NCBI GenBank assembly: GCA_902792005.1
Contig: CADAXW010000014.1
Location: forward strand, 1 to 53,673
Reading direction: 5' to 3'
DNA: 53,673 nt
DNA from: an uncultured Lachnospiraceae bacterium
GTDB taxonomy: Bacteria; Bacillota; Clostridia; Lachnospirales; Lachnospiraceae
Under the pieces are notes generated by a model. The model did no database searches, was not told the origin of the DNA, and saw nothing but the letters and a program-made list of their open reading frames with translations. Both the position numbers and the translations under genes were made by a program. The first letter of the stretch is position 1. Every line of letters starts with the position of its first letter. This document shows positions 49,039 through 52,084 of this stretch, piece by piece.

Positions 49039-49522
49039 GTTTTATGTCCAGCGCCTGCAGGATCCGTTCCAGCCTTTCGTCCTTCACATGCCATACCGGT
49101 TCCAGCGGCCAGGGCAGATCCCGTACATACTCCAGATCCTCTTTCGGCAGTCCCTCCAGCCTGCGAAAGAAGCCGTCTTTATCCTTGTAGATCTCCCTGC
49201 CGAAATGACACTCTGCATACGCATCCCCCGTGGCCGGAATCTCTTCCACCACCTGTCGCATGCTGCTTCGCCCATAGAGCCCCTGCTCCCGGACATAGGT
49301 CACCTTCCTCCGGGGTTTGTCCGTCGGTTCCTCCAGACGGATCCGTCCGGTGTCCAGATAGTGCTTCCACACCATTTCCGTCACCAGCTCCTTTTTGGTG
49401 GGAAACTGCAGCTTTCCGCAGATCTCCGTTACCGTAAGGCCCTGGTCTGCCAGATGGCACACCGCATCCCGGCTGGCAAAGTCATTCATGAAGTTTGTAA
49501 GTGCCGATTGAAACGTTTTCAT
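49019..49522 (-). CDS. Hypothetical protein with possible HTH, 167 aa
   Basis: Overlaps the stop of the AMMECR1 fusion by 4 bases (ATGA), so it is translationally coupled to the AmmeMemoRadiSam genes. The N-terminal part (CHLADQGLTVTEICGKLQFP, then KKELVTEMVWKHYLDTGRI) reads like a winged helix-turn-helix. The C-terminal half is charged and not recognised. It may be a dedicated regulator or partner of the system. Confidence 0.7.
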   Translation of the reverse strand: MKTFQSALTNFMNDFASRDAVCHLADQGLTVTEICGKLQFPTKKELVTEMVWKHYLDTGRIRLEEPTDKPRRKVTYVREQGLYGRSSMRQVVEEIPATGDAYAECHFGREIYKDKDGFFRRLEGLPKEDLEYVRDLPWPLEPVWHVKDERLERILQALDIKREKNAE

Positions 49523-50904
49523 TTATGTCTGATCACCTCAAACCGCTGCAGCTTCACTTCCTCATCTTCATCGATCCCGGCCTTCCGTTTGGCGATATCG
49601 ATCTGCTCCTCCACCGTGTCAACGCCCTCCAGATCCGGAAGGAGAAGTCCTCTTCTCCGCCCCCGGGTGACGATGACGCCGTACCGCTTCACATCCAGCT
49701 GGTCCGGAGAATCTATATCCTCCGGTTCTCCCAGCACGTCCACATTGATCTCCAGCAGAGGCAGTTCCTCCGGGCGGATGGGATCAAAACGGGGATCCCG
49801 GGTGGATGCGCTGATGGCATTCTGTATGATCTCCATGGCCACGGACTCCTCCGTGGGCAAGATGGTCCCGATGCAGCCCCGCAGCCGTCCCTCCTTATGA
49901 ATGGACACAAAGGCTCCCGCCCTGTTGCGGTACATTTCCGGGGGAAGTCCCTCCGGAACATGTATGGTTTCCCGTCGCAGGATATAGCTTTCCAGAGACG
50001 CTCTGGCCAGCCGCACGTAGGCATCCGCGCTCTCCATGCCTGATCGGGCCTTCTCCTCCTGCTCCCTTAGATAGGCCTCCCGGAAATGTCGTCCCGGATC
50101 CTTTTCTCCCGGGTAGAAGGAACAGATTCCGTATCCCACGCCGGTCACGTCCTGATGGGAGTAGACCCTGGTGCTGACCGATACTCCGTCCAGCGCTCCC
50201 GCCATCATGACAAAGGAACGATGGCCGCACTCCGCAGCCCTGTCGCAGAAGTTCTCGTCGAAGCGCAACATTTCATCAAATGCGCCTCTTCCCGCCGTAT
50301 CCATGATCCTCTGATCATACTCCGGGCCCTCCGGAGCAAAGCCGTAGGGGCCGTAATCCTGAAGCTTGTGGGACAGATCGCCGCTGGCCACATAGACCAC
50401 GCGCCGTCCCGATTCCTCCACTGCCTGCCGGATCATCTCTCCCAGGCGGTAATGATCCGCAAGCCCCAGTCCCGAAAGACCGATGCGGATCAGCTTAAAG
50501 TCCGTGTATTTTTGCCGGATGAAGTAGAGGGGAACCATGGTGCCGTGATCCAGGGCAGGCTTCCTCTCCCCCAGGATGCCGGCGGGAAAGTCCGCCTCCT
50601 CTGCCAGCTGGCAGATCCTCTCACGGAGGGACACATCATACTTCACATCAAAGCTGACCTGACGTGCGCCGAAATCACCGAAGTTTCCCTTTGCAGTGTA
50701 GCCGGGCGAAATATGGAAATAATCCGAATACATGGTTGCATGGGGACTGGAAATGATGATGGTCTCCGGCCGTGCCTTGGCGATCTCCTCCGCCACGGCC
50801 AGATAGGAATCGATGGTTTCCCGAACCTCCTCTTCACGTCCCTGCCCCACTGCAGGGATGATGAGGGGTGGATGCGGAACCATAAATGCAGCAACGATCG
50901 ACAT
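49519..50904 (-). CDS. AmmeMemoRadiSam protein: extradiol-dioxygenase (LigB/Memo-like) fused to AMMECR1
   Basis: 461 residues from ATG 50904 behind AAGGAGGAGG. Residues 1-265 are a class III extradiol-dioxygenase/Memo-like domain with metal-type His positions in MVPHPPLIIP, ISSPHATMYSDY, ALDHGTMVPL and SGDLSHKLQDY. Residues about 285-455 are an AMMECR1 domain (GAFVSIHKEGRLRGCIGTI, STRDPRFDPI, VTRGRRRGLLLPDLEGVDT). The conserved trio Memo, AMMECR1 and a radical-SAM enzyme defines the AmmeMemoRadiSam system of unknown function. Upstream lies the radical-SAM gene, separated by a hairpin array. Confidence 0.93.
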   Translation of the reverse strand: MSIVAAFMVPHPPLIIPAVGQGREEEVRETIDSYLAVAEEIAKARPETIIISSPHATMYSDYFHISPGYTAKGNFGDFGARQVSFDVKYDVSLRERICQLAEEADFPAGILGERKPALDHGTMVPLYFIRQKYTDFKLIRIGLSGLGLADHYRLGEMIRQAVEESGRRVVYVASGDLSHKLQDYGPYGFAPEGPEYDQRIMDTAGRGAFDEMLRFDENFCDRAAECGHRSFVMMAGALDGVSVSTRVYSHQDVTGVGYGICSFYPGEKDPGRHFREAYLREQEEKARSGMESADAYVRLARASLESYILRRETIHVPEGLPPEMYRNRAGAFVSIHKEGRLRGCIGTILPTEESVAMEIIQNAISASTRDPRFDPIRPEELPLLEINVDVLGEPEDIDSPDQLDVKRYGVIVTRGRRRGLLLPDLEGVDTVEEQIDIAKRKAGIDEDEEVKLQRFEVIRHK

Positions 50905-50973: not shown

Positions 50974-51079
50974 CAAAACTGCTTCGCAGTTTTGCCCGGT
51001 TGCTTCGCAACCGCGTCGCCGCTTCGCGGCGGCATCCCTCGCTTCGCTCGGGACCGCGATTTTGCTTCGCAAAATCGCG
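50974..51079. repeat. Array of five tandem hairpins, each with a GCTTCGC centre
   Basis: Five palindromes in 106 bases: 50974-50994 (9-bp arms), 50997-51013 (7), 51017-51031 (6), 51035-51053 (8, two mismatches) and 51055-51079 (11). Every centre reads GC-TTC-GC, i.e. GCGAAGC on the transcribed sense of the operon. The stem sequences all differ. d(GCGAAGC) is known as an exceptionally stable mini-hairpin. It lies inside the AmmeMemoRadiSam operon. Confidence 0.9.
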
Positions 51080-51091
51080 ACTTGTGGCGAT

Positions 51092-51952
51092 TCAGCAATT
51101 TCCGGTATATACATATTTCAGGTGCTTCTCCGCGATTTCCTTCAGCCGGTAGATCAGCTTAACGGAGGTGGCATCCCGGTCTGTCATTTTGAACCTTGGA
51201 AAGAATCTGGAGATATGAAGAGGAATCTCCTGTCCGATGCGGTTTCCCTCTCCGTCCTTCAGTTCACTGATCCAGGCGCTAAGTGCATCCATTTCCGTTG
51301 TCGTATCATTTTCCCCCGGAATGATCAGCGTGGTGAGCTCCACGTGACAGTGCTTTACCGCTTCCCGGATGAAGTCCATCACCATGGGGCGGTTCCCCTG
51401 AAGGAGATCCCGATAGTACCCGTCTGTAAAGCCCTTCAGATCGATATTCATGGCATGGATGTAGGGGATGATCTCCTCCAGAACGGACAGCTCCGCCATG
51501 CCGTTGGAAACCAGAACATTTTTCATACCCCGCTCTGCCACCAGTTTCGCCGTGTCCCGGACAAATTCGTAGCACACCAGTGGTTCGTTGTAGGTAAAGG
51601 CGACGCCGATATTTCCGCGGCTCCGGTAGAATTCCGCCGCATCTGCCACCGTCTCCGGCGTCATATACTCGGAGTCCTCCTTCCGGTCCCTTACCTCCTC
51701 GGACCAGGAGATCTCATAATTCTGACAGAAGGGACAGCGCAGATTGCAGCCATAACTCCCGACGGAAAGGATGTAGGAGCCGGGATGGAACCGATGCAGC
51801 GGCTTCTTCTCGATGGGATCCAGCGCAAGTGCGGTAACACGCCCATAGTTTTCCGGCACAACAAAACCGTCCCTGCAGGTTCTGACCCCGCAGAAACCAT
51901 ATCCGCCCTCAGGTATATTACAGTGCCGATAGCACACCTTGCATTCCGCCAT
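51092..51952 (-). CDS. amrS: AmmeMemoRadiSam system radical-SAM enzyme
   Basis: 286 residues from ATG 51952 behind GGGAGGTGAT. N-terminal Cys motif ECKVCYRHCNIPEGGYGFCG, radical-SAM cluster motif YGCNLRCPFCQNYEISW (CxxxCxxC), then VAFTYNEPLVCYEF and HAMNIDLKGF, typical of the pyruvate-formate-lyase-activase-like AmrS family. First gene of the operon with the dioxygenase/AMMECR1 fusion. A longer frame upstream runs through a palindromic repeat and is not coding. Confidence 0.95.
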   Translation of the reverse strand: MAECKVCYRHCNIPEGGYGFCGVRTCRDGFVVPENYGRVTALALDPIEKKPLHRFHPGSYILSVGSYGCNLRCPFCQNYEISWSEEVRDRKEDSEYMTPETVADAAEFYRSRGNIGVAFTYNEPLVCYEFVRDTAKLVAERGMKNVLVSNGMAELSVLEEIIPYIHAMNIDLKGFTDGYYRDLLQGNRPMVMDFIREAVKHCHVELTTLIIPGENDTTTEMDALSAWISELKDGEGNRIGQEIPLHISRFFPRFKMTDRDATSVKLIYRLKEIAEKHLKYVYTGNC

Positions 51953-51986
51953 AGGATCACCTCCCGATAGCTGCAGTTTCCCTTTT

Positions 51987-52064
51987 GCGTGACAACGGGG
52001 ACAGTCCCCATTGTCACGAAATCCTGGGAAAACGTGACAATGGGGACTGTCCCCGTTGTCACGC
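51987..52064. repeat. 78-bp palindromic element, copy A (REPIN/MITE-like)
   Basis: 32-bp arms (51987-52018 and 52033-52064), perfect reverse complements, around a 14-base spacer. Each arm is itself a near palindrome, GTGACAA.GGGGAC.GTCCCC..TTGTCAC. It lies in the predicted 5' leader of amrS. Copy B is at 53506-53583. Confidence 0.93.
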
Positions 52065-52084
52065 CCGCCGTCACTCGCCTTATA

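Follow-up and report, generated by a model that had tools for sequence, protein, structure and literature searches.

A hairpin array between amrS-like and AMMECR1 genes is one copy of a dispersed C(GNA)G hairpin element in a rumen Lachnospiraceae genus

Why should five short hairpins with one constant loop be packed between two genes of an uncultured Lachnospiraceae bacterium, and do they belong to those genes at all? The array lies in a stretch of 53,673 nucleotides, here called the window, and a sequence-only reading had described it as five palindromes centred on GCTTCGC. All five cores are present, starting at 50981, 51002, 51021, 51041, and 51064, and the outer limits of the array (50974–51079) are exact, but only four of the stems are perfect (arms of 9, 7, 6, and 11 bp, with a TTC triloop on the plus strand and GAA on the minus strand, the mRNA-sense strand). 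The fourth core in plus-strand order, at 51035–51053, departs from a perfect palindrome: its hairpin, which RNA folding recovers, is interrupted by a tandem G·A/A·G mismatch. The same mismatched design is found in the 86 aligned matches discussed below. The features are collected in Table 1.

Table 1. Hairpins of the array and the genes on either side, in window coordinates
Feature	Position	Strand	Sequence or domains	Remarks
H1, first hairpin in mRNA sense	51055..51079	−	CGCGATTTTGC-GAA-GCAAAATCGCG	Arms 11 bp
H2	51035..51053	−	TCCC-GA-GC-GAA-GC-GA-GGGA	Tandem G·A mismatch within stem; from sequence and fold
H3	51017..51031	−	CGCCGC-GAA-GCGGCG	Arms 6 bp; covaries in relatives
H4	50997..51013	−	CGGTTGC-GAA-GCAACCG	Arms 7 bp; covaries in relatives
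H5	50974..50994	−	CAAAACTGC-GAA-GCAGTTTTG	Arms 9 bp; missing from C72 copy
Core H2-H3-H4	50994..51055	−		Used for model R1; window copy is in the training set, so it scores 93.1 bits by construction
Spacer	51080..51091	−		12 nt from amrS stop codon to H1; no −10-like hexamer, unlike many other copies
Radical-SAM protein (AmrS-like), upstream gene	51092..51952	−	Pfam PF04055	
LigB/Memo-AMMECR1 fusion, downstream gene	49519..50904	−	Pfam PF02900 + PF01871	Start 70 nt behind H5

Putative co-transcription of the radical-SAM and LigB/Memo-AMMECR1 genes is plausible. The array between them is more than a chance arrangement, as seen from its folding against dinucleotide shuffles (z = −4.0 as RNA and −5.6 as DNA for a 151-nt region), from the concentration of triloop hairpins with arms of at least 6 bp (26 in the 53.7-kb window, four of them within the array), and from the excess of GCTTCGC-N5-30-GCTTCGC in the 2.30-Mb genome (19 sites vs 2 for the reversed control; some of the 19 are coding and not all are hairpin arrays). 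The opposite strand folds about equally well, and RNA and DNA folding energies favour neither strand. Upstream of amrS, at window positions ~51985–52065, two palindromes GTGACAAYGGGGACWGTCCCCRTTGTCAC stand as a pair and form a REPIN-like repeat, and long palindromes of comparable style also occur near two Y1 transposase loci (L178, L181). miRNA matches in L008 and L020 were set aside, as they belong to another palindrome, near window position 52000.

The array is a single copy of an element that is dispersed in a rumen Lachnospiraceae genus, unannotated, and ~130–140 bp long in its complete form. Two further copies in the same genome, C72 and C42, have the whole layout; C72 lies between tRNA genes and is 94% identical to the window array over 99 bases. 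Homologues in two other genomes (G036 and G002) show 84% identity. The pattern GCGAAGC-N8-30-GCGAAGC has 348 matches vs 88 for the control in 37 genomes of the genus, this one included, and 56 vs 37 in 24 genomes from elsewhere in the order. R1, a covariance model built from nine copies of the core H2-H4, matches 44 of 61 genus genomes (E up to 0.01). In a family sample of 250 genomes (E up to 1e-4), only the two that belong to the genus match, and none of the 248 from other genera do so under these strict filters, which may miss weak relatives. Because the window copy sits in the training set of R1, its own membership rests on the DNA matches. Proteins related to AMMECR1 are carried on contigs mostly from rumen Lachnospiraceae, the nearest (89% identity) from an uncultured Lachnospiraceae MAG. 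In 20-kb samples, a census of triloops proved weak, with one genome (G000) partly masked by N. A literature search, with full text for open-licence papers only, returned no title or abstract describing the repeat.

This distribution bears on two claims of the sequence-only reading. It had staked its case on finding GCTTCGC-centred arrays elsewhere, and more of them are found both in the same genome and in the genus. It had also argued that a constant loop on differing stems speaks against duplication; this holds for the five hairpins, which are not copies of one another, but not for the array as a whole, which is a copied and dispersed unit.

The stems of this unit covary strongly in relatives, which was the other point on which the earlier proposal had been made to depend. 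In alignment A4, which was fitted to the model and counts sequences rather than events (73 loci with 86 matches, of which 78 are distinct), 96.7% of cells are paired vs 71.9% in shuffles, both sides change at 19 of 19 pairs (379 cells vs 114.8), and the covariation score is 0.671 vs 0.229. Sliding the partners out of register leaves only 19–47% pairing. The nine seed copies agree: 97.1% of their cells pair and 8 of 19 pairs are changed on both sides, values reached in none of 500 shuffles, while one measure, further pair types, falls below the shuffles. At one pair of H3 (A4 columns 45 and 70) an A·G mismatch recurs, 17 of 77 distinct lettered rows having no standard pair there.

The hairpins also follow a strict loop rule. 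Across 84 distinct regions read on the sense strand, 232 triloop hairpins with arms of at least 5 bp were counted, 185 of which carry GNA loops (GAA 156, GTA 12, GCA 9, GGA 8) and 204 a C-G closing pair; GAA occurs 156 times on this strand and TTC twice. The element consists of about five such modules, with C(GNA)G loops all on one strand. Pairing within the GNA hairpins is nearly pure, with 1541 Watson-Crick pairs against interior exceptions of AG/GA (31), GG (4), GT/TG (2), CA (1), and AA (1), and single-sided transitions are almost absent. G·U accounts for 25 of 1398 pairs in the model alignment, where 47 mismatch cells are mostly A·G, vs 258 of 3246 (7.9%) in 152 tRNAs from the collected loci, a 4-fold rarity (Fisher p 9e-19, with cells that are not independent). 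GCGAAGC is much less stable in its RNA form. PMC4686876 gives the rule for extraordinarily stable DNA mini-hairpins as a GNA loop closed by two or more G-C pairs, with a Tm of 78 °C for GCGAAGC. The element shares this rule, and what is a chemical motif in that text is here the unit of a genomic repeat. We read the stems as being kept perfect mainly at the DNA level. Both the C(GNA)G rule and the scarcity of G·U give indirect backing to the earlier idea that single-stranded DNA is where the constant loop matters.

Presence of the element varies at orthologous sites. The spacer behind tRNA-Arg, compared in 29 genomes of the genus (tRNA-His is next in 27), is at most 60 nt long in 16 and 83 nt in one; it holds 150–269 nt of other sequence, largely hairpins, in seven, and R1 elements in five. 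A second hairpin family was seen in tRNA spacers (L109, L110, L113, L331, L341, L344), of the form GTAGGAAAA..GCGAAGC..CGTAGGTGAGTTCGACGGCC..GAACGAACC and similar; it adjoins or replaces the R1 element and has no Rfam match in L109, L110, and L113. In genome G003, 23 matches to a 138-nt unit were found, many of them at contig ends. At 13 left junctions in this genome the identity inside the element averages 98.6% (minimum 93.9%) and that of the flanks is 30.7%. Many contigs of this MAG start or stop inside the element, so that it fragments assemblies and its copy number in G003 is probably underestimated.

No exact empty site was seen. Nor was a mobilising enzyme found: PF01797 has no match in the window's own genome, Y1 transposase matches occur in 18 of 37 genomes, and 20 Y1 loci with ~1.5-kb flanks contain no GNA hairpins of the kind searched. 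One strict pattern hit no viral contigs, and comparison by eye in G002 gave no clear replication-strand bias. At four loci (L247, L249, L289, L291) a partial second unit behind the element ends within ~5 nt of the H1 apex. Upstream of uvrB (L012/L022), and at L116, a nested repeat type carries a Shine-Dalgarno-like AAGGAGG, so that the uvrB ribosome site appears to lie in the repeat. The sequence GGTTAAAGGAGGG, repeated at uvrB, was considered as a target duplication and dropped, since L116 has the same kind within its nested repeat unit.

In the main subtype, defined by an H1 with GGGATnGCC and chosen after its junction pattern was seen, a TATAAT-like hexamer (at most one mismatch) lies 1–2 nt before the element at 22 of 32 host-side left junctions. 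The offset is 1 nt in 20 of these and 2 nt in the other two, TGn precedes the hexamer in 19 of the 22, and each other offset among the 50 examined has 0–3 hexamers. With the frequency of the hexamer in 400 kb of G002 as background, P is about 8e-38 for this count and about 1e-27 for the 12 of 13 junctions in G003. With all subtypes and automatic boundaries, 18 of the 60 flanks on the host side have the hexamer at 0–4 nt, and the five 5-nt bins that follow contain 0, 2, 1, 4, and 5; outside the main subtype it is found in 8 of 45. The G003 junctions read TATAAT (seven), TACAAT (three), then TAAAAT, TATACT, and TTGTAT, and because they vary while the element is near-constant, the hexamer belongs to the host. 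TRTG precedes it at 8 of 13 G003 junctions; stabilisation of the open complex is a known role of the TRTGn motif. Compared with shuffles, there is no excess of −35 boxes.

The main subtype ends on the right with CATGGTACA, and AT comes next in 10 of the 11 right ends read in G003; together with the left hexamer, this places a −10-like box at both junctions of this subtype. Head-to-tail joints read GGTACAATAGCC. Where both hexamers are visible the right does not follow the left (C266 in G003 has TATACT on the left and TACAAT on the right), and a target-site duplication of the hexamer, such as would go with the terminal inverted repeats of a classical MITE, is unsupported. The window copy stands 12 nt behind the amrS stop codon and has no −10 box; what the junctions show therefore holds for the family and not for the window site. 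Orientation is biased as well. A downstream feature could be scored for 80 of the 84 distinct copies, and it is in sense for 61 and antisense for 19 (p 3e-6, with copies that are not independent); both neighbours are in sense in 37 copies and antisense in 10. All ten upstream tRNAs are in sense, and at 10 of the 11 right ends tested in G003, sense frames of 80 codons or more begin 6–130 nt downstream (two are doubtful, and one end was unrecognised).

Homologous copies thus occur at unrelated places and vary in presence, are near-identical in G003, form head-to-tail arrays, and have covarying stems. We consider it probable that the array in the window represents, in diverged form, a small mobile element that is non-autonomous, confined to the genus, and prefers extended −10 boxes. 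This preference would come from a sequence-specific insertion reaction whose core is TAYAAT-like, and tandem arrays could grow as elements insert into their own right end with its terminal −10. The stems may stay perfect because a single folded DNA strand would be the substrate of mobilisation. A consequence of insertion behind −10 boxes would be sense transcription of the element, within operon spacers and 5' leaders. Effects on host genes, if there are any, have more probably been tolerated than selected for, and the window copy, in an operon spacer, looks like an old or atypical insertion. A bolder version, which we offer tentatively, is that the element enters the single-stranded transcription bubble as a GNA-folded DNA strand. 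With a complete −10 on each side, the host promoter would survive, its transcripts would begin with the hairpins of the element, and tandem growth would proceed via the terminal −10.

Covariation and sense orientation would also fit a role in RNA. The element could be a portable piece of RNA structure, serving as a 5' leader or operon spacer, where it would protect or insulate the mRNA and its hairpins would be selected as RNA. The orientation counts given above, with the sense frames behind G003 right ends, are consistent with this, as is a site directly behind −10 boxes, from whose spacing transcripts would be predicted to start at or in H1. However, insertion behind −10 boxes alone accounts for the orientation, and G·U, rare compared with tRNAs, is nearly absent inside the GNA stems. 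What marks a cis-regulatory structured RNA is there in part: covarying structure is present, while a constant tie to one gene or pathway is absent, the neighbours being tRNAs, uvrB, AMMECR1, and varied other coding genes. We consider selection on RNA unlikely as the main explanation. A narrower proposal, that the array regulates the amrS/AMMECR1 ratio, agrees with its place between two same-strand genes. Among 30 loci of the genus examined, however, a significant R1 match at this junction is found in the window's own genome only; one other locus reaches 18.2 bits (E 0.1), and G036, G023, and G061 have the same gene order without the element. As homologous copies adjoin unrelated genes besides, the earlier idea that the array sets the ratio of the two proteins is largely refuted and an operon-specific regulator is highly improbable.

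Covariation could also arise without selection. If the stable GNA core let a nascent strand fold back, template switching would rewrite one arm from the other, and such mutational correction of palindromes would agree with the near absence of single-sided transitions. Copies separated by 5–8 differences show 60 two-sided vs 20 one-sided changes, and, within the hairpins compared, C14 is separated from C72 by one loop base and by two pair changes that are both fully matched. At 1–4 differences, though, one-sided changes are the majority (15 vs 6), and the A·G mismatch in H3 persists in many copies. This process leaves dispersal and the −10 junctions unexplained, and could at most be a partner of mobility; by itself it is rather improbable.

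The mobile hairpin element that we favour shares features with several known systems and differs from each. In IS200/IS605-type insertion the hairpins are strand-specific, and the fixed host sequence on the 5' side of the element is matched by a similar one at its right end. The present element likewise has strand-specific hairpins, and a host sequence resembling its right end often stands 5' of it in the main subtype (22 of 32 junctions), less often over all subtypes (18 of 60). In contrast, the aligned IS605-like elements have other ends and TTTA-type left flanks, and no transposase is linked to the hairpin element. An IS605-like partner was rejected on part of the Y1 loci, where five aligned pairs have other ends and a sixth gave no alignment. 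The bcr1 repeat of the Gram-positive Bacillus cereus group is also a small, structured, dispersed, and group-specific repeat with features of a mobile element; judged by its description, it differs in sequence. We know of no C(GNA)G rule or −10 junctions in bcr1.

REP/REPIN sequences with their RAYT transposases are, according to PMC3116915 and PMC3733652, small extragenic palindromic repeats that are non-autonomous, clustered, partly genus- or species-specific, and thought to move as folded single strands. These traits are shared. However, no RAYT lies near the element and none was found in its own genome, the hairpins here point one way and form no inverted pairs, and the junctions lie at −10 boxes. 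Identity with RAYT/REPIN was rejected on the missing PF01797 match and the lack of GNA hairpins at the 20 Y1 loci. Clostridiales-1 RNA (RF01699), a family of multi-hairpin repeats of gut Clostridiales (PMC2864571), is similar in kind, and two other arrays of the same genome match it weakly: L004 (1324–1494) with 41.6 bits and L014 (1430–1545) with 25.7 bits, against an Rfam cut-off of 48. A whole-genome search with RF01699 listed a single 15.9-bit hit and neither L004 nor L014. GCGAAGC hairpins lie in or near the variable parts of the match in L004 and L014. The window array itself matches neither RF01699 nor any other Rfam family (E up to 5; in a second scan, E up to 0.5).

Here the C(GNA)G rule of DNA mini-hairpins underlies a naturally occurring repeat, whose RNA-like covariation, almost without G·U, is a warning for RNA discovery from covariation alone. 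If the −10 junctions reflect targeting, the element lives on promoters and leaves them intact, many transcripts in one genus would have their 5' ends rewritten, and the enzyme that mobilises it becomes a concrete question.
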